Part shown: positions 2,270 through 21,947 of the stretch, one piece after another
Position numbering within the stretch: the stretch's first letter is position 1
How the letters are laid out: each line of letters begins with the position of its first letter
NCBI GenBank assembly: GCA_019359695.1
Contig: JAHHGV010000044.1
Span: forward strand, 1-64,000
DNA length: 64,000 bases
Source: Brasilonema angustatum HA4187-MV1
Lineage (GTDB): Bacteria; Cyanobacteriota; Cyanobacteriia; Cyanobacteriales; Nostocaceae
Reading direction: 5' to 3'
Notes under the pieces: model-generated
Database searches by the model: none
Told to the model about the DNA's origin: nothing
What the model saw: only the letters and a program-made list of their open reading frames with translations
Translations under genes and position numbers: made by a program

Positions 2270-3292
2270 TTAGTTCCCCATACCCAAAAGCGCCTTAACC
2301 GATCGCCCGATATTTGTTGGCTGCATCGCATCGATTGCAGCGGTGGGTTCATAACCGCAATGTACCATGCAATCTCTACACTTGGGATTTTTGCTAGCCT
2401 GACCGTATTGACTCCAGTCGGTTTTATCTAATAGTTCTTGGAAAGTTTTGTAGTGACCTTCATTTAGAAGATAACAAGGCTTTTGCCAACCAAGAACACT
2501 ATAGCTGGGACTACCCCAAGGAGTACAATCGTAGTCTTTCTCACCAATGAGAAAATCTAAAAACAATGGGCTATTAATAAAATCCCAGTTTTTCTTGCCT
2601 GCTTTGTAGGGAGCAAAAATTTGCCGGAAGAGTGCCCGTGTTTGTTCGCGTTTGAGAAAATGATCTTGATCCGGTGCCCATTCGTAACTATAGCCAGGGG
2701 AGATCGTCATCCCATCAACACCTAGGGAGGTGAGCAAATCAAACAAGTCCTGCAATTCTTTGGGATCACTACCGTCAAAAACCGTAGTGTTTGTCCCAAC
2801 ACGAAATCCTTTTGCTTTTGCCGCACGAATCGCGCTAATTGCAGTATCAAAGACACCTTTGCGATCCACACAATGATCGTGCCACTCCTTCGTCCCGTCT
2901 AAATGCACACTGAAGGTCAGATATGGGGAAGGTTTAAACTTGTGCAGACTTTTTTCTAGCAACAAGCCATTTGTACATAAGACAATAAACTTTTTGCGTG
3001 CAACCAAACCTCGGACAATTTCATCAATTTGAGGATGGAGCAGGGGTTCGCCTCCAGGAATGGAGACAACTGGTGCGCCACACTCTTCCACTGCAGCAAA
3101 GCATTGCTCAGGAGTCAAGTGTTGCTTGAGTATTTCTTTAGGATGCTGGATTTTGCCACAACCTGGACAAGCCAAATTACACCGGAATAAAGGTTCTAAC
3201 ATCAGAACCAAGGGGAACCGTTTGCGACCCAACACACGTTGAGTCACTATGTACTTACCTATTTCAATAGCTTGTTGTAAATGAATTCCCAT
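2270..3292 (-). CDS. hpnH: Adenosyl-hopene transferase HpnH (radical SAM)
   Basis: HpnH is a radical SAM enzyme that adds the adenosyl moiety to diploptene, giving adenosylhopane, the first step toward C35 extended hopanoids. The 340-residue length fits the family. The cluster motif C38-x3-C42-x2-C45 lies in [16 protein letters not shown] motif ([11 protein letters not shown]) follows, and a late cysteine group ([13 protein letters not shown]) sits near residue 305. It lies 122 bp downstream of hpnA on the same strand, so the two are probably co-transcribed. The hpnG partner that normally follows is not in this window. Confidence 0.93.
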
Positions 3293-3414
3293 AACTGTCC
3301 TCTACACCACTTTGATATAAACTCTAGCCAGCAGCAGTCTGCATTGAACCCATGAGCAAAATGCCCGATGACAATTTTGCATGGTTATGATAATAATCCC
3401 AAAAGTCTCTAATT

Positions 3415-4410
3415 TTATGCTACCTCAAGGTATTTCTCAGCTACAAACCAATTTACGGCGTCTTGTAAAGCTGTTTTGATTGACGTTTGAGGTAAACCTA
3501 GTTCTCGGACTGCTTTGGAAGCATCGTAATACATAGGTTGATGCGCCATGCGAACACCATCTAAAGGAATCGAAGGCGGTTTGCCTAAAGGCGCGAGAAT
3601 TCGTTCATCAATCCAAGCTAAACTCAAGGGTAGCCACGCTGGTACAGATTTTTGAGGAGCACTCAAACCTGTGATTTCGGCAAGTTGGTCTAGTAGCTCT
3701 TTAAGAGTAAGGTTTTGGTTGCCTAAGATATAACGCTCTCCCGTTTTTCCTTTTTCCAAAGCTAATAGGTGTCCCCTCGCCACATCGCCCACATCGATAA
3801 AATTTAAACCCGTATTCAAATAGAAAGGCATTTGCCTTCGCAGAAATCGGAGAATGATATCCCCAGTGGGAGTTGGTTTTATATCCCAAGGACCAATTGG
3901 AGTGCTTGGATTGACTATCACGATATCTTGACCCTGTTTTACGGCTTGTTTTGCTTCCTGCTCAGCTAGATACTTAGACTTCTTATACTGACCAATTAGT
4001 TCCTCAAGAGGACTTTGATGAGTTTCATCCACTACCTTCCCTAGTTCACCTACCCCAATAGCAGCAACGGAACTTGTGTAAACAGTGCGTTCAACACCTG
4101 CTTGACGAGCAGCCGCCAACACATTGCGTGTTCCCAAAACGTTATTCTGGTATAGTACATCTTGGTCAGCTTGCCAAAGGGAATAGTGAGCCGCAACGTG
4201 AAAGAGTACCTGAGCGCCCTGTATTTTCTGGTATAAATCAGGATCGTTCAAGTCACCTTTGACAATCTCTACATCTAAATTCTGTAAATTGTTCAAGGAG
4301 CTGTTAGGACGAACTAAAGCCCGGACTGCATAGCCTTCTTGAAGCAGCAAGCGTGCCAAGTTAGCACCAACAAAACCAGTAGTACCAGTCACAAACGCTC
4401 GAATTGTCAT
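3415..4410 (-). CDS. hpnA: Hopanoid-associated sugar epimerase HpnA (extended SDR)
   Basis: This 331-residue NAD-dependent epimerase/dehydratase of the extended SDR fold has the Rossmann motif GTTGFVG at residues 9-15 and an active-site YxxxK (YKKSK). It matches the HpnA type commonly found beside hopanoid genes. Its substrate is not settled, but a role in making or modifying the sugar-derived side chain of extended hopanoids is assumed. It lies just upstream of hpnH on the minus strand. Confidence 0.87.
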   Translation of the reverse strand: MTIRAFVTGTTGFVGANLARLLLQEGYAVRALVRPNSSLNNLQNLDVEIVKGDLNDPDLYQKIQGAQVLFHVAAHYSLWQADQDVLYQNNVLGTRNVLAAARQAGVERTVYTSSVAAIGVGELGKVVDETHQSPLEELIGQYKKSKYLAEQEAKQAVKQGQDIVIVNPSTPIGPWDIKPTPTGDIILRFLRRQMPFYLNTGLNFIDVGDVARGHLLALEKGKTGERYILGNQNLTLKELLDQLAEITGLSAPQKSVPAWLPLSLAWIDERILAPLGKPPSIPLDGVRMAHQPMYYDASKAVRELGLPQTSIKTALQDAVNWFVAEKYLEVA

Positions 4411-4848: not shown

Positions 4849-4851
4849 CGC

Positions 4852-5943
4852 TTAGGTTACTTTAATTTGTGTGATAATTTGCCTGACAACAGCAAGAAAA
4901 CGTTCCATGTCAGCATGGGCGATCGCTCCCATTGTCGAGACTCTAAAGATTGATTTGGCTAAAGTTCCTTGTCCAGCATAAATCACAAAGCCCTGCGCTT
5001 TCAGTTGGTCGTGGAACTCGTCATAGCTCAAATTATCTGGTAAGTTAAAGGCATTCAGGACAACAGATGAACTTGTTGCAGAAAGTAAGGGTTCAATTCC
5101 CATTGCGAGTAACCCGTTCCGCACTAAACTGACAAGTTGGCTGTAATAGCTATGTCTTGCACGCCAGCCCCCTTGTTCTTCCAGTTCTTGCAAAGCTTCT
5201 GCTAAAGCATAGAATGCTTGAACAGATTGGGTAAAAGGAGTACCGCCTTTGTCTTGCTGTTGACAATAAGTCCGCAAATCTAAATATAAGGTGCGTGGGA
5301 TTGTGTCTGCACCTGCCAGCGCATCCCGCCGCACGATGACAAAAGATGTTCCAGGAATTCCATGCAGACACTTATTTGCTGTAGCCGCGCAAGCTGTGAT
5401 TCCCCAAGATTCAAAATTCAGTTCTTCAGCACCAAAACTGCTAACCGCATCTACCAAAAGTTGGATATTTCGTTCCTGACAAATTGTACCTACTTGAGCC
5501 AAATTATTCAGACGCCCTGTTGTGGTTTCGTGATGAACAACGGCGAGGTGAGTGATGTCGTTGTTTTCATCTAGAAGTGTTACCAAATCCTTGATATTGA
5601 TTTCGTCACCCCAAGGATGGTGCAGTGTCAGATATTCAATTCCGTGGATGGTAGCAATTTTGGAGAGTCTTTCACCATACACGCCGTTTTCAATCACCAG
5701 CAACTTGCCGTTTTTTGGAACTAGACTAGTAACCATAGCTTCCATTGCTGCTGTCCCAGAACCTGTCAGCAAAACTGCTGCCCAGCGTTCCCCCGGCAGA
5801 TCGTAGACTTGAAGTAGTTTTTCGCGGATTTGGCTTTGAAGTTGGGAAAATTCCACTTCACGGTGACACAAATCGGGACGTAACAGAGCATTTCTGACGC
5901 GATCGCTAAGATTAACAGGACCAGGATTTAATAAAATTATCAT
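4852..5943 (-). CDS. phnW: 2-aminoethylphosphonate transaminase (PhnW-like, class V)
   Basis: This 363-residue PLP enzyme of the class V aminotransferase fold interconverts phosphonoacetaldehyde and 2-aminoethylphosphonate. It opens with LLNPGPVNLSDRVR and has the phosphate-binding loop GSGTAAMEA (61-69), the ring-stacking aspartate in VDAVSSFG (D165) and the PLP lysine K191 in ATANKCLHG. It starts 4 bp after the phosphonopyruvate decarboxylase stop, so the two form an operon. With pepM nearby and no phosphonatase or C-P lyase visible, it most likely works in the biosynthetic direction, making AEP. Confidence 0.9.
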   Translation of the reverse strand: MIILLNPGPVNLSDRVRNALLRPDLCHREVEFSQLQSQIREKLLQVYDLPGERWAAVLLTGSGTAAMEAMVTSLVPKNGKLLVIENGVYGERLSKIATIHGIEYLTLHHPWGDEINIKDLVTLLDENNDITHLAVVHHETTTGRLNNLAQVGTICQERNIQLLVDAVSSFGAEELNFESWGITACAATANKCLHGIPGTSFVIVRRDALAGADTIPRTLYLDLRTYCQQQDKGGTPFTQSVQAFYALAEALQELEEQGGWRARHSYYSQLVSLVRNGLLAMGIEPLLSATSSSVVLNAFNLPDNLSYDEFHDQLKAQGFVIYAGQGTLAKSIFRVSTMGAIAHADMERFLAVVRQIITQIKVT

Positions 5944-5947
5944 GGAA

Positions 5948-7144
5948 TTAGAAACGAGAATTAATATGAGTCATCAGGCGTTGTAAAACTGCTTCCGGTG
6001 ATATATTAGGTCGGGGTAAGTTGTTGAGCGTTCCCGGACGGATTTTGAGGTGACCGAATTTGGGTTTATTGTTGATTTGTGCTGCAAATAGTGCATCTAA
6101 AAGCAAAGGGTCGTCTCCTTGTAATGTGATCCCATATCCGCACGCTTCGGCAATTTTAGCAAAAGAGATACCTGAAGATACAGTTGCTTGAGCGCCTGTA
6201 GAATCGTGACATTCATTGTCTAAGAGAATATGAATCAAATTAGAACCGCCATAAGTTCCGATGGTTGCAAAATTACCCATACGCATAAGTGCTGCACCAT
6301 CCCCATCAATGACCACAACTTTTAAGTCTGGACGTGCTAAGGAGAGTCCAAGTCCCAGAGATGAAGCACAGCCCATTGAGCCTACCATATAGAGATGTGA
6401 GGAGCGATAAGCCTCTGGCTTGACGCTGCGCGTAACGCAACTGGCAAAGAGTTCGCGTCCTGTATATCCGGTGGTTGCAATTATTACTGTATTTTCAGAA
6501 TCAGTAAGTTCCACAATTCGAGCCAGTGCTTCACTTCGGGAGATACGTTGCTCTTTGTCACCGATAAAAAAGTTTTTGGGAACAGCATTGTTATGGCTTT
6601 CCTCTTGGTTCCGCGATGGGATAGAAGCACGGACAAGCTTATGGGGTGCAACTGTTCCCTTCCGCATAATTAAGGCGTAAGGGCGGCGTTCTTGTTTCAT
6701 ATAAGCTTCAGCTCGTTGCAGGACACGTTCTATCTCTGCTGCTTCTTGAGGAAAATATTCCCAAGGAACAGTCATTGTTTCTAACAATTTATCTGTAATC
6801 TGCCCCATGAGTTCATGCTGTGGTTCATCTTGGAACTGTGGATCACCGCGCAGTGTACAGATAAGTAGCAGTGGAATGCGAAAGATATAAGCAAGGGAAG
6901 TCAATGGGTTAACTGCATTACCCAACCCAGAGTTTTGCATCATGACAACGGCTTTTTTGCCACCAATTGCTGCTCCCGCCGCCGTTGCTAAAGCGTCTCC
7001 TTCATTTGCTGAGGAGATATAAGTGAGTTTGACATCATTGATGACGTAGTTGATGAAAGGGGTGAGAAAGGAACAGGGTACACCAGCATACCACTGAAAG
7101 CCTAAATTGCGAGCAGCTTCTACAAATTCCTCGGCTTGGATCAT
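5948..7144 (-). CDS. ppd: Phosphonopyruvate decarboxylase
   Basis: This 398-residue TPP-dependent enzyme converts phosphonopyruvate to phosphonoacetaldehyde, the step that makes C-P bond formation by PEP mutase effectively irreversible. Visible are the cofactor-activating glutamate in SANEGDALATAAG, NSGLGNAVNPL, and the TPP/metal motif that starts with GDGAAL near residue 280 and ends in the DNECHDSTGAQ segment. The length and single-chain layout match Ppd rather than the split sulfopyruvate decarboxylase. phnW follows directly. Confidence 0.92.
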   Translation of the reverse strand: MIQAEEFVEAARNLGFQWYAGVPCSFLTPFINYVINDVKLTYISSANEGDALATAAGAAIGGKKAVVMMQNSGLGNAVNPLTSLAYIFRIPLLLICTLRGDPQFQDEPQHELMGQITDKLLETMTVPWEYFPQEAAEIERVLQRAEAYMKQERRPYALIMRKGTVAPHKLVRASIPSRNQEESHNNAVPKNFFIGDKEQRISRSEALARIVELTDSENTVIIATTGYTGRELFASCVTRSVKPEAYRSSHLYMVGSMGCASSLGLGLSLARPDLKVVVIDGDGAALMRMGNFATIGTYGGSNLIHILLDNECHDSTGAQATVSSGISFAKIAEACGYGITLQGDDPLLLDALFAAQINNKPKFGHLKIRPGTLNNLPRPNISPEAVLQRLMTHINSRF

Positions 7145-7249
7145 GAGAATAAAATACCTTCAGTTTGAATTAATGTATATTTAATTTTGCATTAGTACTT
7201 ATTGCTATATTAGAAATATTTTTAAGACAATACGTGCGGGGACTTGTCT

Positions 7250-8863
7250 ATGCCTATGGAAGCTTACGCTATATTAGACGGTGGCGGGGTTAAGGGTGCT
7301 GCGCTGGTAGGATGTCTTCAGGCGGCAAAAGATCACGGCATTAAGTTTATAGGCTATGGCGGTACATCCGCTGGAAGTATTGTAGCCTTACTAGCTAGTG
7401 TCGGATATTCCCCAGAAGATATCAAAGAGATAATGATTGAGGAAATTAATTTTAATGATTTTTTGGATGGTACTGACAAAGACTTGGAACGTTTCAAAAA
7501 ATTTCCTAAAGGATTTCTCACTTCTTTTTTTAAAAATCTCTTTTTATGGCAAAATAAAGATTTAATTGACAAGCTTAATGAAAAATTAGGACTATGCGAT
7601 GCCATAACACTTACTAAATTTCTTTTAGAAAAAATCAAAGATAGCCCCAAAGTACAAAACAGTAATTCAGATTTAAGAAAAAAAATCGAAAAAGCAACAG
7701 ATATTAATTTCCAAGATCTCAAAAAGTTAAAATGTGACCCTCTCAAAGTTGTTGCTTCCGATCTTATAAGCCAGAAAGCTGTAATATACCCACAAGATGA
7801 AGGAGAAGAGGCTTTAAATTATTCCGTTATTAAAGCAGTACGGGCGTCGATGTGTTTCCCGTTTGTTTTTACTCCAGTTAGACAAGAAAATGGCAGTGTC
7901 TTGGTAGATGGTGGGTTAAGTAGCAACTTGCCAATATTCCTCTTTCAGAAAGAGAGGTCTATTGATCACAAACCAGTAATAGCATTTGATTTGTGTGACG
8001 AGGAAGATAACATCGCTGCTCAGACTAACAAGACGAAAGAATATCAACTAGGTGAGTTGCTTGGAGATATGCTGGCAACAGTACTAGAGTCAAGCGATGA
8101 CTTACTAAGGCAGGTGATAGATAATATTTATCATGTACGCATTCCTTTACGAAAAGATATAGATACACTTGACTTTTCAATTGATAAAGAGAAAAGAAAA
8201 CAACTTTTTGATAAAGGACATAGTGTTACTTCGAGCTTCATAGTAACCAATTTATTTGTATGGAAACAAGCCAAAAATACCGTAGAACGACTGCAAGCCC
8301 TACATGCTCCTCCGCGTCTGGTTCAACCTATACTAAAAACAGTTGTGAGAGAACTGGAAGAAAGCCCTAGACTCAGTAATTGTCGTTCCTATATTATGTT
8401 GCCAACTGACGAAGGTAAATTCGCTGTTGTCTATCAGTACGGTATGGATGATGATCCAGATATTGATTGGGAAATAGAAATGAATAATGGAGGGGCTTGG
8501 TCGGAGATTTGGAATAATCGAAAACCTAATCTTCAAAATATTGAAGTTCTTAGAAAAAACATTTCTGAATATAACATTACCAAAGCTCAAGTCAACAAAA
8601 TACCAAAGGATAAAAAGACTACAGTTGTTGTTCCCATATTTGACTGGAAAATAATTACGGAACTTACAGATAATCAATATGAAGAGTTTCAAAATTCTAA
8701 TTTTCAAAATTTCCAAGATATTATTGACCAATATGCTCTGATTGGAATTCTGTGTATAGATACCAGCACTCCTACTCGGGATATACTTAATTCTCAAAGA
8801 TTTGGAAATGTTTACCGCAGTATAATGGTAAAAGCTAGTATTCTATCAGGAATATTAAGATAG
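7250..8863 (+). CDS. Patatin-like phospholipase with C-terminal GAF-like domain
   Basis: The amino half is a patatin lipase: GGGVKG oxyanion loop (residues 12-17), the nucleophile elbow GTSAG around residue 40, and the catalytic aspartate in VDGGLSSNLP. Residues beyond about 370 (SYIMLPTDEGKFAVVYQYGM through IGILCIDTSTP) look like a GAF sensor domain. A fusion of this kind suggests a phospholipase switched by a ligand. I chose the ATG at 7250; the frame also has a TTG at 7244 and an ATG at 7256. The gene is clearly more AT-rich than its neighbours and runs against the phosphonate genes, suggesting insertion. No CD-NTase is nearby, so a CBASS assignment is not supported. Confidence 0.8.
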   Translation: MPMEAYAILDGGGVKGAALVGCLQAAKDHGIKFIGYGGTSAGSIVALLASVGYSPEDIKEIMIEEINFNDFLDGTDKDLERFKKFPKGFLTSFFKNLFLWQNKDLIDKLNEKLGLCDAITLTKFLLEKIKDSPKVQNSNSDLRKKIEKATDINFQDLKKLKCDPLKVVASDLISQKAVIYPQDEGEEALNYSVIKAVRASMCFPFVFTPVRQENGSVLVDGGLSSNLPIFLFQKERSIDHKPVIAFDLCDEEDNIAAQTNKTKEYQLGELLGDMLATVLESSDDLLRQVIDNIYHVRIPLRKDIDTLDFSIDKEKRKQLFDKGHSVTSSFIVTNLFVWKQAKNTVERLQALHAPPRLVQPILKTVVRELEESPRLSNCRSYIMLPTDEGKFAVVYQYGMDDDPDIDWEIEMNNGGAWSEIWNNRKPNLQNIEVLRKNISEYNITKAQVNKIPKDKKTTVVVPIFDWKIITELTDNQYEEFQNSNFQNFQDIIDQYALIGILCIDTSTPTRDILNSQRFGNVYRSIMVKASILSGILR

Positions 8864-8874
8864 AGGATGAGATT

Positions 8875-9462: not shown

Positions 9463-9583
9463 TAATAACACATATAAAGATAATGTTTAAGGAATGGAAT
9501 AATAACACATAAGCACTACTGCCTTTTATAAGGATTTGTTCTCTGAAATACTTTCTACGAATTCATAGGCATTTGGTGCAATT

Positions 9584-10298: not shown

Positions 10299-11954
10299 TT
10301 ATTTTTTCAACTGAAAAGCGAGATCGAGGTCTTCCAAAGAGTTAACATCTAGCCAGTTACCGCGAATATAAAGAACCTTAATCGGTTTCCCCTGCTCAAT
10401 TAAGTAATTACATAATTCTGGCATACCCAAGCTGTTAAAATCTGGTCTTGTTTGTAACTCACCCAGTGCTTGATCCAACCACTGTCTGCCTTGGCTGCGG
10501 AATTTTAGCATCCCAATCCACCGTCCACAGGATTGTCCCGATTCTGTTTGCGTTGCTTTGGAGATGTGCAAAAGGTTGACATCCTGTCCAAACAGGGAAA
10601 GATCGTCTGTGATTGAGCAATAAGCATAGTCAGGAGAACCGCTGACTGATTTGCTGTTCATCGTAGAATCAACCACAGCGACAATTTCTCCAGGACAATC
10701 TAATAAATCTCGCAAAATATAGCTTCTAAAAAGTAAATCGCCGTAAACTACCAGCATATCGTCGCTAAAGCTGGCTTGGGAACAGGCTAAAGATGCTAAT
10801 TCTCCTGTGGTTTCATACTTTAAGTTACGGATAACTTTAGTCCCAGGAACATTGATGGTTTCTGCTTTATAACCCGCGACAACCGTAATATCGTTGATGG
10901 CAAGTTTTTTGAATTTGTCCACCAAATGCCTGAGCAGGGGTTTCCCTCCAAGAGGTAACATGACTTTGGGTTTATCTTGAGTCAACCCAGCAAATTCTTG
11001 TCCTCTGGTTGCAGCAAGAACGATCGCCTGAGTATGCTGGCGTCCATTGGTGAAGTAGCGTTTTTCCGCCTCTTGCAGTTCATCTGCTCCCTGTAGCCGG
11101 AAAATTTCTTTAACAGAAGCAATCTCGTCTTCAATGTTGATCAGGGTTTCGTTGGTGTGAACTTCGCGGGCGATCGCTTGCATACTAGCAACAGCGGCGC
11201 GAATCATGTGGTTTGCCCAGATAACCAAACTAATCCCGGCTTTACGAAAGACATCGGTTGGAGTGCTGTAATATTTTGTTGGAATAATAACCAACGCAGA
11301 GCGCCCCGCCCACTCTTTAGCAAACTCTAGCACTTGGTCAGGACGGGATAATTTGCTGTGAATCACAATTGCGTCTGCTCCGGCTGTGTGGTATAGTTCT
11401 GCTCGGCGCAATGCTTCCGATAAATCCCAACCAGCAATCAAAGCTTCGACACGAGCGATGATGCTGAAATCTGGATCTTGTTGACTGTCCTTGCCTGCCT
11501 TGATTTTGCCGCAGAATTCATCGATATCAGCCAGGGGTTGGCGATCACCATTAATAAAACTATTGGTCTTCGGGAAAAGCTTATCTTCAATACAGACTCC
11601 GGCAATACCTCGCTGCTCTAGCTTCCTAACGAGACGACGCATATTATTAAAGTTACCATAACCCGTATCCCCATCTAACAAGATAGGAATCTGGGTGATG
11701 TCGGACATGAACTCCAGCATTTCCACAATTTGAGTCCAACTGGCTTCATTGTTGTCTCGTACTCCATATTGAGCAGAAACAGCAAGTCCACTTGCCCAAA
11801 TCCCTTTAAATCCAGCTTCTTCCACAATGCGGGCGCTGATACCATTGTGTGCTTCCATGATGAATTCGAGTTGAGGCGATTCGAGTAACCCCCGCAACTG
11901 AGCGCACTTGCTTGGTTTTGAACTGGTGACAACAGGTGGAGATATTTGGTACAT
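10299..11954 (-). CDS. pepM: Phosphoenolpyruvate phosphomutase fused to a nucleotidyltransferase
   Basis: Residues 1 to about 300 are PEP mutase, the enzyme that makes the C-P bond by rearranging PEP to phosphonopyruvate. The diagnostic signature EDKxxxKxNS is exact ([10 protein letters not shown], 123-132), and DGDTGYG at 94-100 supplies metal ligands. From about residue 313 a nucleotidyltransferase domain begins ([32 protein letters not shown]). Such a domain can activate AEP as CMP-AEP, as PntC does. Its Gly-rich loop reads AATRG rather than the usual AAGRG. The gene starts 6 bp after the separate nucleotidyltransferase stop, so the pair is one operon. Confidence 0.93.
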
Positions 11955-11960: not shown

Positions 11961-12698
11961 TTATAATTGAGGTAAAATCTCGTTTTGAGCGCGTTTTATA
12001 TCTTCGGGAAAATCGATTTCTATCCAAGGTAAACCTGTGATGTCTTCGTACCCAAATGCTGAGGGGGTTTCCAATAGCAAATCCCGAATTGCTTCCTCAT
12101 ACGGTTCTTGATGCAGTCCGGCCGCGACATAGTATTCTGTACGAGAAGCAAGACGACGGGCGAGTGCACTATCAAAGCGAAAAAACCCCACAGATTCGCC
12201 AGCAAAATCATAAGAAAGATCCGCAGGGATTTGTTTACGAAACTCTACAAGAGTTGTGTCTTGCACACAAAGCTTGACTGGTTCCTCCCCTGGTTCAAAA
12301 TCCCGATCCAGTAAGAAGCAGTTAGGGATATTTGTTTTCATGAGTCGCTCAATGATGCGGCGATCGCACAAAACATCTGCATCCATTAATAACAAGTCAT
12401 CACCTGCAGCTAAGTGCTCCCTTAACGTCCAAAGGCTGATCACACTCCCTTTTGTGTAGTTAAGATTGTAAACAGTCTTGACCTTATTTTCGGCTCCCAA
12501 TGCTTTGATTTCTTCCTCAATCATTTGAGCCTGGTAACCGACAGCAATAACCACTTCTGTTATCTGGTAATCACGCAGATACTCTAAATGGCGTTGCAGT
12601 AGAGATTTACCGTTAAATCTCAGCAAGCATTTGGGTTGAACTTGCCCTTGTTCCCCCAAGCGTCGTCCAACGCCAGCAGCTAATATGATTGCCTTCAT
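11961..12698 (-). CDS. Sugar/alcohol-phosphate nucleotidyltransferase (MobA-like fold)
   Basis: This 245-residue protein has the signature AIILAAGVGRRLG at residues 3-15, PKCLLRFNGKSLLQRHL, and a metal-binding LLLMDADVLCD, as in CTP:phosphocholine and CTP:inositol-phosphate cytidylyltransferases. It is the second nucleotidyltransferase of the locus, beside the domain fused to PEP mutase. A CDP-alcohol phosphatidyltransferase gene lies 129 bp upstream. It probably supplies a CDP- or CMP-activated head group, but its substrate cannot be read from sequence. Confidence 0.82.
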   Translation of the reverse strand: MKAIILAAGVGRRLGEQGQVQPKCLLRFNGKSLLQRHLEYLRDYQITEVVIAVGYQAQMIEEEIKALGAENKVKTVYNLNYTKGSVISLWTLREHLAAGDDLLLMDADVLCDRRIIERLMKTNIPNCFLLDRDFEPGEEPVKLCVQDTTLVEFRKQIPADLSYDFAGESVGFFRFDSALARRLASRTEYYVAAGLHQEPYEEAIRDLLLETPSAFGYEDITGLPWIEIDFPEDIKRAQNEILPQL

Positions 12699-12827: not shown

Positions 12828-13502
12828 TCAGCTTGGCGGTAAAGACGACTGGTTGGACATCTGCACAAGTTGCCACCACATTATGAGTGCAACTACCGTT
12901 GCACCAACCGTGGCTCCCACGAGCAAAGGGAGCAGCAACCCAAACCAAGCAACAGGAGCAAAAAGGTAGTAGACATCGTCTGCATCGAATCCACCAAAAC
13001 CAGAAATGGCTTTTTTTCCCGAACCATCACGCTGCTCAAGTTCCTCAGCAAGAACTGATATTGCTGCTACAGCCGCACCGGAGACTAGCCCCATCGGTAT
13101 CGCCCACCAACCGAGTACACTACCGCGCAAACCGATGCCGATCGCAACGAAAAACAGCGAGCTGATTGCAACATCCGACCAGTAATCATACGTATGTCCC
13201 CAAGAACTCGTTTGACCGCTGATGCGGGCAAGTTCGCCATCGGCGCGATCGAGAAAGGCGGAGAGAACCCAGATGATTCCACCCCATATTTCTCCTGTGA
13301 AATTGCCCACCGCTAAACCAGCACATGCAGCCAAACCAGTGAGCAGTCGTAGCGTAGTGAGATGGTTTGGAGTCACTGCTGTATCAATCAGTGGTCGTAT
13401 CAAAGGACGAGCCAGACGATGTGTCCAAGAGTTGCTGCTTGTATCACCGCCTCCGGTTTTATTGGGTTGTAATCCAGTTTCCATTTTTCCAGTAAGTGAC
13501 AA
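12828..13502 (-). CDS. CDP-alcohol phosphatidyltransferase family protein (1)
   Basis: This 224-residue membrane enzyme carries the complete family motif D85-x2-D88-G89-x2-A92-R93-x8-G102-x3-D106-x3-D110 (FLDRADGELAR, then GHTYDYWSD), with several hydrophobic helices. Members swap CMP of a CDP-activated group for an alcohol, building phospholipid head groups. Its position directly upstream of the nucleotidyltransferase and pepM genes suggests it uses the activated phosphonate or a related CDP-alcohol. It is homologous to the protein at 18456-19073. Confidence 0.87.
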   Translation of the reverse strand: MSLTGKMETGLQPNKTGGGDTSSNSWTHRLARPLIRPLIDTAVTPNHLTTLRLLTGLAACAGLAVGNFTGEIWGGIIWVLSAFLDRADGELARISGQTSSWGHTYDYWSDVAISSLFFVAIGIGLRGSVLGWWAIPMGLVSGAAVAAISVLAEELEQRDGSGKKAISGFGGFDADDVYYLFAPVAWFGLLLPLLVGATVGATVVALIMWWQLVQMSNQSSLPPS

Positions 13503-14921: not shown

Positions 14922-15061
14922 CGCTAGCCTCAGACAGCAACATTATGAAGATTGAGCAGAGATAAAAGTGAACGAACTTATCACTGCAATACGCCTAGCG
15001 TCAGACAGCAATAGTATGAAGATTGAAGAGAGATAGAAATGAACGAACTTATCACTGCAAT
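14922..15061 (+). repeat. 71-bp tandem duplication of the cadD leader and first codons
   Basis: The segment 14922-14990 (CTCAGACAGCAA, then TATGAAGATTGA, AGAGATA and GAACGAACTTATCACTGCAA) is repeated at 14992-15061. The second copy leads into the transporter gene from ATG 15039. The first copy has GTG in the same place (14968) and loses homology after seven codons, so it is an aborted duplicate start. Confidence 0.85.
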
Positions 15062-15749
15062 TCCCACGGGCATCACAGCTTTTATAGCCACAAACTTAGA
15101 TGATTTGGTCATTCTCACGCTGTTGTTCTCTCAGGTGAATGCAACTTTCCGTCGTCGGCACATTGTGATTGGTCAGTACCTGGGCTTTTGTACTCTGGTT
15201 GTTGCCAGCTTAGTTGGTTTTCTAGGAGGCTTGGTCTTGCCATCCCATTGGATTGGGCTTCTGGGTTTAGTACCCATCACCATTGGACTAAATTGTCTGC
15301 TAAATCCAGAAAGCGATGCATCTGCTGAGACCGAAACCGAAACCGAATTTTCTCATTCTTCTGCCTTCGCTAGTTTTGTGTCTCCCCAAGCTTATAGTGT
15401 GGCGGCTATTACTATCGCCAATGGGAGTGACAATGTAGGGATCTATATGCCATTGTTTGCTAACAGTACTTTTTCTGAGTTGCTGGTGATAGTTGCAGTC
15501 TTCTTGTTACTAGTTGGGGTTTGGTGCTACCTGACATACAAACTTACCTGCCAAAGAGCACTCGCCAATCTGCTAAAGTGCTATGGCAATAATCTTGTTC
15601 CTTTTGTATTGATAGGCTTAGGCGTCTTTATTATCTTAGACAGTGCCGCGCTAACTCCAATTATTTTGGCAGCTATTTGCCTATGTTTAATGGGACTTAT
15701 CAAAACAATTCAAATTTCCAAATTCAAAACTCAAAGTTTGTCATCGTAA
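15039..15749 (+). CDS. CadD-like cadmium resistance transporter
   Basis: This 236-residue polytopic membrane protein of the CadD family opens with the characteristic ITAFIATNLDDLVILTLLF and has a second conserved helix (AITIANGSDNVGIYMPLF). An acidic ETETETEF linker lies between the two halves. Related proteins have been tied to cadmium efflux, but in cyanobacteria the substrate is unknown. The start has AGAGATAG upstream. The gene's 5' end is tandemly duplicated. Confidence 0.8.
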   Translation: MNELITAIPTGITAFIATNLDDLVILTLLFSQVNATFRRRHIVIGQYLGFCTLVVASLVGFLGGLVLPSHWIGLLGLVPITIGLNCLLNPESDASAETETETEFSHSSAFASFVSPQAYSVAAITIANGSDNVGIYMPLFANSTFSELLVIVAVFLLLVGVWCYLTYKLTCQRALANLLKCYGNNLVPFVLIGLGVFIILDSAALTPIILAAICLCLMGLIKTIQISKFKTQSLSS

Positions 15750-15754
15750 AAAAT

Positions 15755-16075
15755 ATGAAACTTTTCCAAATCTCTTTAGTAGTCTTAGTACTTGTGATTA
15801 ATTTAATAATTGCTTTCCCCTCCTGGGCAACAACTCTTCCTTCCTTAGTTAGTAATTCTGATTATTTTGAAGTTGGGCAAAAAGTCGTTTGGCTTTATAA
15901 GGCTCGTTCAGACTCTGCTAATGTCCACAAAATTCCTGCTGAAGTAGTCAAGTTAGGCGACAAGCAAGTACAAATTAAGGTACGCAAAAAAAACAACGGA
16001 TTTATCAATCGTTGGGTAAATCGAAACAAGCTTAAAAATGTCTCCAGTCTTGAAGAAGTGAACAGTGATAACTGA
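15755..16075 (+). CDS. Small secreted protein with signal peptide
   Basis: This 106-residue protein has a clear signal peptide ending FPSWA at residue 25. The mature part is basic, with WLYKARSDSANVHKIPAEVV and KLGDKQVQIKVRKK segments suggestive of a small beta-barrel, SH3-like fold. I chose ATG 15755 because it begins the signal peptide; the frame is open from 15677, inside the end of the CadD gene. The signal peptide closely resembles that of the gene at 16502. No family is recognised. Confidence 0.65.
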   Translation: MKLFQISLVVLVLVINLIIAFPSWATTLPSLVSNSDYFEVGQKVVWLYKARSDSANVHKIPAEVVKLGDKQVQIKVRKKNNGFINRWVNRNKLKNVSSLEEVNSDN

Positions 16076-16501
16076 TAACTGATTGAAGTAAGTATCAATC
16101 AAGCGAACTATAAAACTGTTCACCCTTATAAAGCTTTCAAAGTCTCCTCAAAATCCACCATAGCATCTTCTAGTGTCAGTGACATGAACTATATATTTTC
16201 AAACTTTAAATATTGGCTCAGAAATTCATCAATTAGATTTATTGAATCAACAACTAAGAGTATTTGTTTTTATTGATTAACTTGGTTAAAGTAAAGTTAT
16301 CATAAATCCAGTAAAATGTACACTTACATCCAGTTTCTCCAGGCTAATAAACCAATAGAAGTCACTCAGAAAGATGTAGAAAATCATTAACCTTACAATA
16401 ATTATGGCTAAATACTCTCTTACTGAAGTATTAAACAGCTTCCAACTTCCTCATCACATTTTTTGTTAGAACAAATACTAATCTCAAACAAAGGAGAAAA
16501 T
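16076..16501. other. AT-rich intergenic stretch
   Basis: There is no gene that I can support in these 426 bases. The last 15 bases carry the strong ribosome-binding site AAAGGAG of the following gene. Confidence 0.5.
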
Positions 16502-17125
16502 ATGCAGTTTCTCAAAATTGTTCTTGTCGCGCTCGTGTTTATCGTGAACTTGGTGATTGCTCAGCCCTCTTGGGCAGGCAAGGATTTCACCAAGGGGGCT
16601 GACTATGCTGAAGTCACTCAGGCGCTCAATCAACTTCTAAGTGTGAAAAATGCCCCGGAGCAAGCTGGCTATACGCCTGAGCAATTTCAGCAGCGGTTGG
16701 CACAATTGCAGTTTCAGAAGAATGTCATAGAAACAGCCAGAAAACGGGCACAGTGCCGCAATGAAACTGGAAAGACGTTAGCTGTTTATGCCAATAAACC
16801 GAAAAAATCTCCAACTCAACTCTACTATTTAGGGGCAGGGAAAATCACGGATGATGATTGGGATTGCGATGGCATCTACTTGCCGGCTCTTACTCAGGTC
16901 GTTCTGAGTCCAAATGCTCAACCACAAGAGCTGAGTGAACCAATCGCTGTTAAGTTTGTCGATGGTACACAGTCTATTGCTAGAGCTAATCCAGCAACTG
17001 GTGTTATTGAATTGAATGTTGAACCTGCCAAAGTATACAAGGCGGGTGAAATCAACTGGCTAATCCCTACTTTGTCTCAAGCAGATATTGATACGCAAAC
17101 TCCCACTCCACAACTGATTGACTAA
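16502..17125 (+). CDS. Secreted hypothetical protein
   Basis: This 207-residue protein starts at ATG 16502, six bases after AAAGGAG. A signal peptide ends QPSWA at about residue 25 and is near-identical in style to that of the upstream small secreted protein. The mature part has two cysteines (AQCRNETGK and DWDCDGIY) and a carboxy half rich in beta-prone segments (PIAVKFVDGTQSIARANP). I recognise no family. It probably acts in the periplasm or outside the cell. Confidence 0.7.
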   Translation: MQFLKIVLVALVFIVNLVIAQPSWAGKDFTKGADYAEVTQALNQLLSVKNAPEQAGYTPEQFQQRLAQLQFQKNVIETARKRAQCRNETGKTLAVYANKPKKSPTQLYYLGAGKITDDDWDCDGIYLPALTQVVLSPNAQPQELSEPIAVKFVDGTQSIARANPATGVIELNVEPAKVYKAGEINWLIPTLSQADIDTQTPTPQLID

Positions 17126-17523: not shown

Positions 17524-18282
17524 TTATACCTTGAACACGTATTTTTGATCAGGCGATCGCTCAATATCCGGTGGGTAACTTTTGCGCTTATCAGCATAGT
17601 ACTGGAGGCGATGATCTCCCTCAGAAGCACGATTGTAAGTCAGATAAAGCACTCGACGGGCATCTGTTGTCAAGTTTGGACGGGAACGATGAGGTGCGTA
17701 GGAGTCGAAGAACACAGCATCACCTGGTTTCGCGGGTATAGGAATGAATTCCATGTCTTGAATGTTTTCTTCTGTGAGCGGTTTCCAAAGTTCTCCAATC
17801 AAACCGCGTTGATGATGACCACCAGCTAACTCCAGACAGCCATTTTCTACCGTAGACTCATCAATGCTAATCAGAACTGTGATAAATAGACTAGCATAAT
17901 CATTCCATCCAGCCTGGGCATCCTGATGGGGCGTAAAGCCATTTCCACCCGGCATTTTGAAATTAATTTTTTCTTTAAATAGAACTGCTGGTTCGCCAAA
18001 GAGTTCTGATACTCGCTGTAGCATTTCTTCTCCATTTATCAGCTCATCAAAACCCTGATGGTAGGGACAGAAATTCTCGATGCGCGACAGCACCCGCTTC
18101 CCTGATTCAAGCAAGCTGTCCTCAAAATACATCATGTATTTCCCTGGAATTTCTGGCAACGACTGAACCTCATCTACCCAGGCTTTGATCTGTTCTATTT
18201 TTCCTCCATACATATCTCTAACAACTAAAAATCCCTGTTGCTTGAAGGTTTCTAGTTCGGCTTGAGAAAAGAATTTCAACAT
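17524..18282 (-). CDS. PhyH-family Fe(II)/2-oxoglutarate dioxygenase
   Basis: This 252-residue oxygenase has the facial triad H119-x-D121 (FTPHQDAQ) and H198 (DSYAPHRS), plus the 2-oxoglutarate-binding arginine in ARRVLYLTYNR near 210. The family hydroxylates many small molecules. PhnY, which hydroxylates AEP at C1, belongs to it. In this phosphonate context a phosphonate or lipid head group is a plausible substrate, but this is inferred from position only. It lies downstream of the second CDP-alcohol transferase, separated by 173 bp containing a hairpin repeat. Confidence 0.83.
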   Translation of the reverse strand: MLKFFSQAELETFKQQGFLVVRDMYGGKIEQIKAWVDEVQSLPEIPGKYMMYFEDSLLESGKRVLSRIENFCPYHQGFDELINGEEMLQRVSELFGEPAVLFKEKINFKMPGGNGFTPHQDAQAGWNDYASLFITVLISIDESTVENGCLELAGGHHQRGLIGELWKPLTEENIQDMEFIPIPAKPGDAVFFDSYAPHRSRPNLTTDARRVLYLTYNRASEGDHRLQYYADKRKSYPPDIERSPDQKYVFKV

Positions 18283-18455: not shown

Positions 18456-19073
18456 TCAATTTCTCGTTATTGCGCTTTGTGAGTGTAGGAGTGAGCGGTA
18501 CTGCCAAAAGAACCATACTGCAAAGATTGGCGCACCGATAGTGGCTGTAATCAGCAACGGTACTAATCCATTGAGCAAAGTCACAATTGGAAACAAATAC
18601 AGTATGTCTTCCATATCGAAACCAGCGAAATTAGGTTGATGGGTTGCATCTGTACCGATTTGCTGTTCCATCTGGGTTCGCAAGTGGAAAATGTAAGCAA
18701 CACAAACGCCAGAGACTGTACCCATGAGTAAAGCCCAAGAACCAAGTTTGCTATTCATCAGACCATAGCCAATACCCACAAACAATACAATGTGGACGAT
18801 CGCGTCACTGGCAAGATCGTACTGGTGTCCCCATTTGCTACTTTTTGTGCTCAGCCGAGCCAATTCACCATCCGTGTGATCCAAAAAGTTAGATAACACG
18901 AACAACCAAGCCCCAATATTAACCCACTCAAGGCTACCAACTGCAAACGCTGCTGTTGCCAAAAGCCCAGTTACCAGCCTAACTGTCGTCAGATGATTGG
19001 GATGTATCCAACTGTTTTTCAAAGGTTTCACTAACCAGTAAGCAAGTTGAGCATCCCAAGATTTGTTGGTCAT
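18456..19073 (-). CDS. CDP-alcohol phosphatidyltransferase family protein (2)
   Basis: This 205-residue membrane enzyme has the full motif D65-x2-D68-G69-x2-A72-R73-x8-G82-x3-D86-x3-D90 (FLDHTDGELAR, GHQYDLASD). It is a close homologue of the protein at 12828-13502; PNHLTT and LVTGL/LLTGL are also shared. I start it at ATG 19073, 8 bp after hpnP ends; the frame is open upstream to 19148 within hpnP. Its place behind hpnI and hpnP raises the possibility that its acceptor is a hopanoid or another polar lipid. Confidence 0.85.
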   Translation of the reverse strand: MTNKSWDAQLAYWLVKPLKNSWIHPNHLTTVRLVTGLLATAAFAVGSLEWVNIGAWLFVLSNFLDHTDGELARLSTKSSKWGHQYDLASDAIVHIVLFVGIGYGLMNSKLGSWALLMGTVSGVCVAYIFHLRTQMEQQIGTDATHQPNFAGFDMEDILYLFPIVTLLNGLVPLLITATIGAPIFAVWFFWQYRSLLHSQSAITRN

Positions 19074-19081
19074 AGGTATGG

Positions 19082-20716
19082 TCAGGTGTGAACGGTCTTG
19101 CGTATTTTTTGGGAATAGAAAGAAGCTGATTCTTCCTTCTTGGCGCATTCGGTCGTAAACTTAATTAGATGGTGCCCGACCAATCCAACGTGAATCAGTT
19201 GCTCGATTTTACCAGCTTTCAATGCTGGTAGTGCCATGTTCCAAAAAGTTTTGCGATAGTTACCGAATAGACCTACTCGCAGCAGGAGATTGCTCATAAT
19301 TGTTAAACCTTTCTTAATATTTGCCCAAGAAGTACGAGCAGGGCTATTAGGAACGTCTATCCGGTTAGAGTAGGTATGCTCCATATTGTAGGCATACCGC
19401 TGATAAAGAAATTCCGGCTCATATGCGGTTGTCACACAGCGACGCCACATCTCAACAACCTGTTCATAAGGCATGAGAAATTCGATATTCGACTCGCGAC
19501 CTTCATCAAACACAAGTCGTCCTGCTTTTTCTAACCTACTCCACAATGCAGTTTTCGGTAATGCATGAAGTAGGTTTATTGTCAACATAGGAATTTGAGA
19601 CAGATTAATAAATTCCAGAATTTTGTCTGCGGTTTCTGGTGTATCTGTATCAAACCCGATGATGATTCCTGAGACAACTTCCATCCCATAACTATTGAGA
19701 ACTTTCACTGCCTCAAGAATCGGCATACTCAGGTTGTGAGTTTTGGAAATAGCTTGGAGGGCTTCCGTTTCTGGCGTTTCAATACCGCAGAAAACTGTAC
19801 AAAAATACGCTTCGCGCATCATTTCCAAAAGTTTGGGACTCTGCGCTAAATTCAATGTGGCTTCGCAGGCAAATTGAATCGGATAGCCATTGCGCTTTTG
19901 CCAGTCAATCAGGTGAGGAAGCAACTGCATGAGGGCACGGCGATTACCCACAAAGTTATCATCGACAAAATACACTGCCCCTGGGTTTCCGTATTGCAGC
20001 ATCGCATCTAGTTCAGCGAGAACTTGCTCTGGAGTTTTCAGACGGGGGTTGTTTCCATATAATGCAGGGATGTCACAAAACTCGCAGTGATAAGGGCAAC
20101 CACTGGAGAATTGAATATTGGCAAGGAAATATTGATCGAAATTCAGCAGGTGATAAGCCGGAATCGGAAATTCATTTAGGGGTAAGCGTTCTTTGGTTTC
20201 AAAGCGAATTTGCTTTTGGGGGCGATTGCTGTGCAAATCCAAATACTCAATCATTTGGTCAGTTGCATCTCCCAATTCACCCAGCTGTAAAATATCAAAC
20301 TCTGGGTAATATTCAGGACAACCAGACACCGAAGGACCACCCACAACAGTGATTTTACCTTCTCGGTGGGCAAGTTCATTAATTTGATTCATCTGTGGTC
20401 GCTGGATATGCATCCCACTCACAATCACCACATCAGCCCAGACAAAGTCAGCCCTGATTGCCGATCGCACATTTTCATCAATAAAGCGGACTTCCCACTC
20501 TTTTGGTAAATAAGATGCGACAACCAAAATCCCTTGTGGTGGCATAAAAGCCCGAACATTTCCTCTCAAGGGGTATGCATGATGAAAGGTTCCAAACGAG
20601 CGGCTGTACTTGGGAAAGATGCATAAGATGCGTTTATGATGGCGCGGAATGTAGGGAGTGTTCCGAGTCGTCTTTTGAGAAAGGGGTTTTTCTCGTGACA
20701 TTACCTCACCATTCAT
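19082..20716 (-). CDS. hpnP: Hopanoid C-2 methylase HpnP (B12-binding radical SAM)
   Basis: This 544-residue protein has an amino-terminal cobalamin-binding-like domain (FMPPQGILVVASYLP, WADVVIVSGMHIQRPQM, GGPSVSGCPEYYP) followed by a radical SAM core with C207-x3-C211-x2-C214 (SSGCPYHCEFCDIP). The whole sequence reads like HpnP, the methylase that makes 2-methylhopanoids. I start at ATG 20716, with GGAG ten bases upstream; a TTG at 20734 is the longest alternative. It lies 28 bp after hpnI. Confidence 0.93.
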   Translation of the reverse strand: MNGEVMSREKPLSQKTTRNTPYIPRHHKRILCIFPKYSRSFGTFHHAYPLRGNVRAFMPPQGILVVASYLPKEWEVRFIDENVRSAIRADFVWADVVIVSGMHIQRPQMNQINELAHREGKITVVGGPSVSGCPEYYPEFDILQLGELGDATDQMIEYLDLHSNRPQKQIRFETKERLPLNEFPIPAYHLLNFDQYFLANIQFSSGCPYHCEFCDIPALYGNNPRLKTPEQVLAELDAMLQYGNPGAVYFVDDNFVGNRRALMQLLPHLIDWQKRNGYPIQFACEATLNLAQSPKLLEMMREAYFCTVFCGIETPETEALQAISKTHNLSMPILEAVKVLNSYGMEVVSGIIIGFDTDTPETADKILEFINLSQIPMLTINLLHALPKTALWSRLEKAGRLVFDEGRESNIEFLMPYEQVVEMWRRCVTTAYEPEFLYQRYAYNMEHTYSNRIDVPNSPARTSWANIKKGLTIMSNLLLRVGLFGNYRKTFWNMALPALKAGKIEQLIHVGLVGHHLIKFTTECAKKEESASFYSQKIRKTVHT

Positions 20717-20744
20717 ACTGCATGCACTCCACAAATCTCAATCG

Positions 20745-21947
20745 CTAACTTGACAAGACTTTTGCAAAATCGTCTGTTATTTCCACTAGCTTACCGTCTT
20801 TTGTCTGCTTTAGTCGTCGCCCGCGCCATTCAATTGTGCTGCCGAATAAGCCACAACACCAGATGACAAAGGCTATAACGTCGCGTAGAGGAACAATCCA
20901 GAAAAAGTTTCGCACACAAGAGTCTTGAAGGTAGCTAACGCCAACAACCCAGCCCATGACTAATCGCATCACCCAAGTGGTAGCTAACACAGCACAACCG
21001 ATTGTTGATCCACCTGTAGCCATCAGCAGTAGTAAGCTTGTGACAGTACCATAAGTAAAAATCAGTCCCAGATAACCCCAAGGGCGAGAAACTCGTATAC
21101 AACGTGCCCAGCGAATTTGACGCTGGATAGAATCTGTTATAGTGCTAGATCCCAATACATGGTCAACCACATAATCGGAAAGTACAACCTTGTAGCCTGC
21201 TTGTGCGCTTAAGTAGCCAAGTTGAAAATCGTCTGCCAGATAATCGGCGATCGCCCGAAATCCCCCAATTTCATCTAGCACTTGTTTGCGGATGACAATT
21301 GTTGAACCAAAGGCAAACTTGATACCTTCTAGGGAATTGCTGACTAAGACACCAGGATGGAAATCAGTAGCAGTTCCAATAGCTTCTAAAATGGTTACCC
21401 ATCCTTTGGCTACAGAACGGTATAAACAAGTGACAACACCAACACTCTTGTCTTGTAGTGGCTGGATGACTCTTTGGAGATAGTCTATCCCAACTCGGAT
21501 ATCGCTATCAGCAATAATCAAGATTTCATGTTTAGCTTTGGTGACGGCGTTAGCCAAATTACTTACCTTGGGGTTAGTTCCAATGGTGTCTTCGCAGACG
21601 ACTAACTGAATATCTAATTCTGGAAAGTCGTGAATGATTTGCTTGACAACTGCTATCCCACAGTCTAGTGGATCGCGAACACTAAAGATAACTTGATAGT
21701 TGTCGTACTTCTGTTGGCAAAAAGAAACCAAGTTGTTGTATGTTTCGTCGTCCATACCACAAATGGGCTTGAGGATAGTAACGCTTGGGTGGAAATTAGC
21801 TTGCGCGGGTTGGGGATCAAGGAAAAAAGCGAACGCTGCATAAATTCCATAGCAGTAGAATAAGACAGCCGATATACACAGGATTAATAGTAAAAAATCA
21901 ATGAAATTCAGATTAGCAGAAGTTAGTAACACAGTAGAAGTATGCAT
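20745..21947 (-). CDS. hpnI: Hopanoid biosynthesis glycosyltransferase HpnI
   Basis: This 400-residue GT2-type membrane glycosyltransferase related to ceramide glucosyltransferase has an amino-terminal helix, TILKPICGMD, a DSD metal site (IIADSDIRVG), LADDFQLG, the product-binding QIRWARC, and two or three carboxy-terminal helices. HpnI adds N-acetylglucosamine to bacteriohopanetetrol on the way to the cyclitol ether. HpnK and HpnJ, which complete that route, are not in this window. It heads the hpnI-hpnP-CDP-alcohol transferase run. Confidence 0.87.
   Translation of the reverse strand: MHTSTVLLTSANLNFIDFLLLILCISAVLFYCYGIYAAFAFFLDPQPAQANFHPSVTILKPICGMDDETYNNLVSFCQQKYDNYQVIFSVRDPLDCGIAVVKQIIHDFPELDIQLVVCEDTIGTNPKVSNLANAVTKAKHEILIIADSDIRVGIDYLQRVIQPLQDKSVGVVTCLYRSVAKGWVTILEAIGTATDFHPGVLVSNSLEGIKFAFGSTIVIRKQVLDEIGGFRAIADYLADDFQLGYLSAQAGYKVVLSDYVVDHVLGSSTITDSIQRQIRWARCIRVSRPWGYLGLIFTYGTVTSLLLLMATGGSTIGCAVLATTWVMRLVMGWVVGVSYLQDSCVRNFFWIVPLRDVIAFVIWCCGLFGSTIEWRGRRLKQTKDGKLVEITDDFAKVLSS

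Follow-up and report, generated by a model that had tools for sequence, protein, structure and literature searches.

A candidate locus for phosphonate-bearing hopanoids in Brasilonema angustatum, with related loci in Cyanobacteria and Gammaproteobacteria

Hopanoids, the bacterial equivalents of sterols, give rise to widely used molecular fossils of bacteria; the 2-methylhopanoids made by hpnP are read in this way. In the HpnI-HpnK-HpnJ pathway to bacteriohopanetetrol cyclitol ether, the head group is an amino sugar or cyclitol and contains no phosphorus. In some Roseomonas, pepM, the gene for phosphoenolpyruvate (PEP) mutase, is linked to the squalene-hopene cyclase gene (shc), and an undiscovered terpene-phosphonate has been suggested (PMC8776678). 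Here we analyse a locus in the cyanobacterium Brasilonema angustatum HA4187-MV1 (positions 1 to 64,000 of contig JAHHGV010000044.1; these 64,000 nucleotides are hereafter the window), for which an earlier reading (the original prediction) had proposed that hopanoid genes bracket a phosphonate pathway. From high to low coordinates, the minus strand of positions 2270-21947 carries hpnI, hpnP, CAPT2, PhyH, CAPT1, NTP2, a pepM-nucleotidyltransferase fusion, ppd, phnW, hpnA and hpnH, where CAPT1 and CAPT2 are two CDP-alcohol transferases, NTP2 is a stand-alone nucleotidyltransferase and PhyH is an oxygenase gene (Table 1). We estimate the probability that this locus builds phosphonate-bearing hopanoids at roughly 60%.

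In the proposed pathway, PepM would convert phosphoenolpyruvate to phosphonopyruvate, Ppd would convert phosphonopyruvate to phosphonoacetaldehyde, and PhnW would convert the latter to 2-aminoethylphosphonate (AEP), which the PhyH oxygenase may hydroxylate at C-1. The nucleotidyltransferase domain fused to PepM, NTP2, or both would make CMP-AEP, from which CAPT2, a membrane enzyme, would move the phosphonate to a hydroxyl group on a C35 bacteriohopanepolyol that Shc and HpnH supply and that HpnP possibly methylates at C-2. CAPT1 would catalyse the same transfer to another acceptor, which may be the glucosamine or cyclitol-ether hopanoid produced by HpnI/K/J. The product would be a zwitterionic hopanoid, e.g., bacteriohopanetetrol-AEP (C37H68NO6P). 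We infer the chemistry of two of these steps, the use of a hopanoid as acceptor and the hydroxylation of AEP by PhyH.

Hopanoid and phosphonate genes across genomes

We examined the loci of the best 80 of 486 pepM relatives, of which 34 are cyanobacterial (L045-L079 without L078) and 46 are not, with flanks of up to 10 kb; many contigs end sooner, and the locus counts are lower bounds. At least one hopanoid gene was identified in 22 of the 34 cyanobacterial loci (HpnP in 16, HpnI, HpnH and HpnA in 7 each, HpnJ in 6 and HpnK in 3), and across the same loci CAPT2 was found in 20, NTP2 in 30, ppd in 29, phnW in 27 and PhyH in 1. Locus L062 contains hpnP-hpnJ-hpnK-hpnI-CAPT2-NTP2-pepM-ppd-phnW on one strand, and Nostocales cyanobacterium HT-58-2 (L047) contains hpnI-hpnP-CAPT2-PhyH-NTP2-pepM-ppd-phnW, also on one strand and unbroken. 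In two further loci (L249 and L250), CAPT2 is located away from pepM, yet follows hopanoid genes.

Of the 46 non-cyanobacterial loci, 34 contain shc or at least one of hpnH/A/G/N/B/M, and a CAPT2 relative is present in 16. L078 has the order shc-hpnG-PhyH-hpnN-hpnA-hpnL-NTP2-pepM-ppd-phnW, followed, beyond a dxs on the opposite strand, by hpnH-hpnB-hpnM-mlaA-like (shc 836 bits, hpnG-like 184 against a cut-off of 187, hpnN 1007, hpnA 510, hpnL 338, hpnH 564, hpnB 386, and hpnM by tblastn). L090 has a squalene synthase-like gene, hpnG-like, CAPT, hpnA, NTP2-pepM-ppd-phnW, dxs, hpnH, hpnB, hpnM and mlaA-like, in that order (squalene synthase-like under cut-off, hpnG-like 153 bits and also under cut-off, hpnA 488, hpnH 552, hpnB 387, hpnM 209). 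CAPT2 away from pepM also occurs in the run sqs-shc-hpnG-PhyH-hpnN-CAPT2-hpnA of L238. Four Cupriavidus loci combine CAPT2 with an HpnL relative (TIGR03476, 342 bits in L117). One contig of a metagenome-assembled genome titled Klebsiella pneumoniae (L097) carries hpnA-NTP2-pepM-ppd-phnW, like environmental gammaproteobacterial loci, and its label is probably a mis-assignment.

At the level of whole genomes, which we tested for 50 of the 80 loci, shc is present in 46 of 50. To avoid picking genomes by similarity, we further used an unselected, tool-drawn sample of 274 Gammaproteobacteria, in which PEP mutase scores over cut-off in 18 genomes and hopene cyclase in 39. Comparison of the two shows that shc is present in 16 of the 18 genomes with pepM vs. 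23 of the 256 without (Fisher p = 1.6e-13), and in 12 of 14 pepM genomes once four previously known ones that also belong to the locus set (G401, G406, G409 and G420) are removed (p = 2.6e-10), although many of these genomes are related metagenome-assembled genomes and the p-values, which ignore relatedness, overstate independence. In a sample of the cyanobacterial class, pepM was over cut-off in 7 of 388 genomes, five of which contain shc (G000, G375, G369, G334 and G258). A lack of co-occurrence in related genomes would have refuted the original prediction, and this comparison did not refute it: the two gene sets are interleaved in both Cyanobacteria and Gammaproteobacteria, with different hopanoid neighbours in each, and are strongly associated in the gammaproteobacterial sample, but the cyanobacterial sample shows no clear association.

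We then compared the distribution of the transferases to that of both pathways, using a profile of 24 CAPT proteins. The family is present in 46 of the 50 genomes behind pepM loci. The control set, in which presence required an E-value of 1e-20 or better, comprised 80 genomes: all 18 gammaproteobacterial genomes with pepM, all 23 with shc and without an over-cut-off pepM, 6 of the 7 cyanobacterial genomes with pepM (the seventh, that of B. angustatum itself, was scanned apart), and 33 cyanobacterial genomes with shc and without an over-cut-off pepM, one of which (G073) has a sub-cut-off pepM match. CAPT was found in 15 of the 18 gammaproteobacterial pepM genomes compared to 1 of the 23 that have only shc, and in 2 of the 6 cyanobacterial pepM genomes compared to 0 of the 33; in the four cyanobacterial pepM genomes that lack it (G040, G369, G258 and G078), pepM is 34-57% identical to that of the window. 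Because CAPT tracks pepM in this way, the family belongs to the makers of this phosphonate type, and the 1/23 and 0/33 counts rule out a general hopanoid enzyme. We also disfavour a role in phosphonate synthesis at large, unconnected with hopanoids, as all 15 gammaproteobacterial genomes with both pepM and CAPT contain shc and the two pepM genomes without shc (G484 and G647) lack CAPT, with the caveat that these are two genomes only and carry a more distant pepM (31% and 55% identical). A clear hopanoid gene is present in the fetched stretch in 11 of the 15 CAPT carriers (G499, G556, G420, G644, G631, G680, G569, G406, G465, G609 and G532), a weak one in G555 and G409, and none in the stretch in G522 and G448. 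Adjacency by chance in a single genome is hardly credible: the interruption of the window run by unrelated plus-strand genes would fit it, but the arrangement recurs in two phyla, and chance is refuted by the overlap of pepM and shc in the gammaproteobacterial sample, by the hopanoid genes in the gammaproteobacterial stretches and by the CAPT control.

The CDP-alcohol transferases and their proposed acceptor

The motif D..DG..AR.{8}G...D...D is that of class I CDP-alcohol phosphotransferases, and both CAPT1 and CAPT2 contain it in full. The AlphaFold2 model of CAPT2 (pLDDT 90.3) shows the helical membrane fold of this superfamily, with AF2299 as its top match (E = 8.3e-6, TM 0.74), followed by phosphatidylinositol phosphate (PIP) synthases, IPCT-DIPPS and then, more weakly, CEPT1; the modelled fold establishes the reaction class but does not indicate the acceptor. 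With two TRANSFERASES in the tree, the window CAPT2 groups with cyanobacterial CAPT2. CAPT1, one of the longer end branches, falls in a group of eight with seven non-cyanobacterial proteins (support 100/99).

The relatives of CAPT1 have their own neighbours. In L243, the relative adjoins HpnK (355 bits), HpnJ (762), HpnI (406) and HpnL (251), all over cut-off; L239, L246 and L247 contain hpnI and hpnL, and L244 contains hpnI, up to the contig end; HpnJ over cut-off is present there too. In 11 non-cyanobacterial genomes (G412, G413, G415, G416, G417, G420, G422, G423, G430, G680 and G569), the distance from a CAPT to HpnJ is at most 1.2 kb. Since CAPT1-type genes stand beside hpnK/J/I/L in these loci, each transferase type appears to have its own hopanoid partners. 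The run of HpnI, HpnJ, HpnK and CAPT1 also contains, beside HpnL, a third, more distant CDP-alcohol transferase (L243:15234-15935, PF01066 42 bits), with relatives in L239, L246 and L247.

Overlapping stop and start codons commonly indicate translational coupling. We checked 14 loci with CAPT beside hpnA, a subset of such loci, and in 12 of them the CAPT2 stop overlaps the hpnA start (ATGA or GTGA); L107 has no overlap and L090 is ambiguous. This overlap, together with the control in which CAPT follows pepM, lends strength to the proposal that a CAPT encoded next to a hopanoid gene has a hopanoid as its substrate, although we still infer the acceptor.

The main rival explanation is that the acceptor is diacylglycerol, in which case the product would be an AEP glycerophosphonolipid, the phosphonate twin of phosphatidylethanolamine, co-expressed with hopanoids through outer-membrane packing. 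Eukaryotic choline/ethanolamine phosphotransferases catalyse a reaction of this type and appear among the structures matched by CAPT2 (8gyw, 8ero and 9uet), and both annotated gammaproteobacterial loci contain lipid-transport genes (hpnN in L078, hpnM in L090, and mlaA-like). We nevertheless regard it as unlikely, because it poorly explains the missing CAPT in the shc-less pepM genomes, the overlap of CAPT2 with hpnA, and the pairing of CAPT with hpnP, hpnI/J/K, hpnL or hpnN/hpnA according to lineage. The same neighbours bear on another possibility, that AEP is placed on a surface glycan or protein and that hopanoid genes adjoin it through shared envelope regulation. Bacterial phosphonate capacity is thought to serve mostly cell-surface tailoring (PMC6697681), as this would have it, but the transferases of this locus are CDP-alcohol phosphotransferases encoded beside hopanoid genes, and the only glycosyltransferase among the scanned open reading frames (ORFs) of 2270-21947 is hpnI, which makes a glycan or protein destination improbable.

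Several observations weigh against phosphonohopanoid synthesis as the function of these loci. The clusters were chosen as the best matches to the window pepM, as stated above. No hopanoid gene was found in 12 of the 34 cyanobacterial loci (L046, L048, L051, L059, L061, L064, L066, L070, L072, L073, L076 and L077), and five of these (L048, L051, L059, L061 and L066) have full 10-kb flanks, whereas several others are short. None of the listed hopanoid genes was found in 12 of the 46 other loci, among them L088 despite its full flanks and the four Cupriavidus loci, which have only hpnL nearby, the other searched hopanoid genes being absent from the stretch. Hopanoid genes occur in 9 of the 18 stretches around gammaproteobacterial pepM, several of the other nine being on short contigs. 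In Cyanobacteria, the frequency of shc in pepM genomes (5/7) shows no clear association compared to the overall frequency (179/388), and G040 and G078 have pepM but no shc. Individual genomes also depart from the pattern: G445 has hpnG-hpnN-CAPT2-hpnA but no pepM was found in it, G401 has pepM inside an hpn operon but no CAPT was found, G405 likewise lacks CAPT despite having pepM and shc, and the CAPT of G532 is a weak member of the family (112 bits). The nearest solved folds to CAPT2 are not hopanoid enzymes, and PhyH is found near pepM in only 1 of the 34 cyanobacterial and 3 of the 46 other loci.

Phosphonate synthesis and layout of the window

The steps from phosphoenolpyruvate to AEP are assigned to PepM, Ppd and PhnW by family membership: PEP mutase, Ppd and AEP transaminase are all over cut-off in the same run, and the PEP mutase signature EDKxxxxxNS is present at residue 123 of the window pepM protein, which is 99% identical to pepM of Brasilonema sp. 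CT11. PF12804 matches both nucleotidyltransferases, i.e., the domain fused to PepM and NTP2. Activation of AEP to CMP-AEP is supported by the kinship of NTP2 with LicC (1jyk, E = 8e-10, residues 1-108) and with Treponema PntC (6pd1, E = 2e-8, residues 2-244). Among NCBIfam models, NTP2 best matches an inositol-1-phosphate cytidylyltransferase fusion, with a score well below cut-off. This match would suit a different arrangement, in which NTP2 supplies another CDP-activated alcohol that the CAPTs load onto hopanoids, the phosphonate being made as a product apart; a pair of nucleotidyltransferases and a pair of transferases would likewise suit two activated head groups. Such a division is quite improbable, given that the CAPT family tracks pepM and not hopanoid producers generally, and that the best solved relatives of NTP2 are LicC and the AEP cytidylyltransferase PntC.

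The PhyH gene of the original prediction is present, but its protein does not reach the cut-off of the nearest model, the PhnY-type phosphonate hydroxylase NF052437 (202 bits, cut-off 500). HxD and the distal His are kept in five homologues, and the protein is a candidate AEP hydroxylase on the basis of HxD...H and gene context. L090 (9227-9994) and L117 (7356-8207), in which PhyH was not found, encode next to the pepM operon a protein that weakly matches the Pfam family HalD (halogenase D), perhaps an alternative oxygenase.

The hpnP protein has no NCBIfam match over cut-off, and PhpK, HpnJ and HpnR, considered as identities for this radical SAM protein, all score far under theirs. Among 299 Pseudomonadota genomes we identified 13 matches of 53-57% identity at near full length, the next being at 41% and below, and 7 of the 13 orthologues are within 10 kb of hpnC or hpnC/hpnD; in L191, the sole one annotated, HpnC, HpnD and HpnE are over cut-off. 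We therefore take the window B12 radical SAM protein as HpnP, by an indirect orthology whose reference is hpn-cluster genes rather than a named HpnP. In the same 7 genomes hpnP has a eutB relative on one side and a eutC relative on the other (ethanolamine ammonia-lyase; L191:8667-12670). B. angustatum has two hpnP paralogues, which are 37% identical. No match to the hpnP protein was found in viral contigs, and a portion of the hpnH DNA matched nothing in a search of plasmids.

Table 1. Features of the locus and its surroundings, with coordinates in the window.
Feature	Position	Strand	Evidence or remark
hpnH, adenosyl-hopene transferase (radical SAM)	2270..3292	-	TIGR03470 545 bits, cut-off 225; CxxxCxxC at residue 38
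hpnA, hopanoid-associated sugar epimerase-like reductase	3415..4410	-	TIGR03466 481 bits, cut-off 368
phnW/aepZ, 2-aminoethylphosphonate aminotransferase	4852..5943	-	TIGR03301 424 bits, cut-off 361
ppd, phosphonopyruvate decarboxylase	5948..7144	-	TIGR03297 435 bits, cut-off 313
Patatin-like phospholipase	7244-8863	+	
ORF, 195 aa	8875-9462	+	
ORF, 169 aa, unassigned	9584-10093	-	Between ppd and pepM
pepM fused to MobA-like nucleotidyltransferase (PntC-type domain)	10299..11954	-	TIGR02320 395 bits, cut-off 320; PF12804
NTP2, stand-alone MobA-like nucleotidyltransferase	11961..12698	-	PF12804 61 bits; 1jyk and 6pd1 relatives
CAPT1, CDP-alcohol transferase	12828..13502	-	PF01066 51 bits; full motif; tree position; relatives' neighbours (hpnK/J/I/L in Gammaproteobacteria)
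PhyH-type Fe(II)/2-oxoglutarate oxygenase, candidate AEP hydroxylase	17524..18282	-	PF05721 85 bits
CAPT2, CDP-alcohol transferase, proposed phosphonate-to-hopanoid transferase	18456..19073	-	PF01066 54 bits; full motif; AlphaFold2 model
hpnP, hopanoid C-2 methylase (B12 radical SAM)	19082..20734	-	PF02310, PF04055, PF13282; orthology
hpnI, bacteriohopanetetrol glucosamine biosynthesis glycosyltransferase	20745..21947	-	TIGR03472 363 bits, cut-off 310
ABC exporter, divergent from hpnI/hpnP	22125..23765	+	TIGR01194 499 bits

All genes named in the original prediction were recovered where it had placed them, all on the minus strand, and six (HpnH, HpnA, PhnW/AepZ, Ppd, PEP mutase and HpnI) pass curated NCBIfam cut-offs. 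The stated spacing of 8 bp from hpnP to CAPT2 is correct (hpnP ends at 19082 and the CAPT2 ATG is at 19073). The same-strand flanking holds for the genes themselves but not as a continuous run, which is broken by plus-strand genes, among them patatin-like, DUF1003 and cadmium-transporter-like ones, and by the unassigned minus-strand ORF at 9584-10093; some of the plus-strand genes lie within 13811-17125. Spacings of 4-10 bp suggest that phnW/ppd, pepM/NTP2, hpnP/CAPT2 and hpnI/hpnP are transcriptional units. Positions 7244-10093 (the patatin-like gene and two ORFs) look like an insertion, because ppd and pepM adjoin in L047. In Brasilonema sp. CT11, a 57-residue ppd stretch (96% identical; L045:3961-4131) precedes the complete ppd, a partial duplication close to the site of the apparent insertion in the window. 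Relatives of the ABC exporter with at least 70% identity are present in 15 of the 34 cyanobacterial pepM loci, a weak hint that it possibly exports the product of the locus.

In the B. angustatum genome, which comprises 98 contigs and 8.5 Mb, the single match to squalene-hopene cyclase lies on a contig other than that of the locus, and HpnJ over cut-off on a third. A second match to the PEP mutase search, on contig C79, is isocitrate-lyase-like and under cut-off (132 bits), and we did not take it as PEP mutase. Beyond the exporter, at 23981-26263, the window contains katG (catalase-peroxidase, 1146 bits) in a 2-kb bin of 55% G+C, compared to about 38-46% elsewhere.

Relation to known phosphonates and hopanoids

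Taken further than the window, the neighbourhoods lead us to lean somewhat towards the view that phosphonohopanoids are a widespread undescribed lipid class in heterocystous cyanobacteria, many Gammaproteobacteria, some Burkholderiales (Cupriavidus) and, on a hint from the literature, some Acetobacteraceae, in which two transferase types would load AEP or hydroxy-AEP onto bacteriohopanetetrol and onto the hopanoid made by HpnI/K/J, and HpnA and HpnL would serve the branch. A phosphonate-bearing hopanoid, if true, would be a new hopanoid head group and would place some of the environmental AEP pool in a lipid, and the roles of the little-understood hpnA and hpnL might become testable. The prediction supplies a concrete mass to seek in organisms with named strains: the computed [M+H]+ is 654.4857 for bacteriohopanetetrol-AEP, 670.4806 for its hydroxy form, and 668.5014 and 684.4963 for the respective 2-methyl forms. 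Named strains with the locus are Nostoc punctiforme NIES-2108 (L060), Nostocales HT-58-2 (L047), Calothrix NIES-4101 (L074) and Dulcicalothrix desertica PCC 7102 (L071).

We found no description of a phosphonate-hopanoid in the open-licence literature (subscription papers and preprints lay outside this scope), and the passages of PMC5862535, PMC8692599 and PMC5395668 that bear on the subject contain no hopanoid-phosphonate link. The claim that such a conjugate is not known as described stands to this extent, although the linkage of shc and pepM in Roseomonas anticipated it. That case shares with ours the linkage of cyclase and pepM and the guess of a terpene-phosphonate, but consists of a few sentences on Acetobacteraceae, in which no transferase, wider distribution or acceptor is named (PMC8776678).

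The activation logic proposed here is known from PepM-PntC phosphonyl tailoring, whose acceptors, in the passages concerned, are glycans and lipids of the cell surface in general, with no mention of hopanoids (Rice et al. 2019, PMC6697681), whereas the window transferases pair with hopanoid genes. For the oxygenase, the closest counterpart is PhnY*, which resembles the proposed PhyH reaction in forming 1-hydroxy-AEP from AEP but starts AEP degradation (PMC8154272), whereas the window PhyH is located with synthesis genes and scores under the NF052437 cut-off. A hydroxy-AEP head group is carried by a known bacterial membrane lipid, which is set apart by its description as a sphingolipid; PhnY*, for its part, is a PhyH-type enzyme. 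The HpnI-HpnK-HpnJ pathway is similar to the proposed one in that a polar head group is added to bacteriohopanetetrol, and its genes neighbour both CAPT1 and CAPT2; its known head group is phosphorus-free, whereas the one proposed here would carry a phosphonate.

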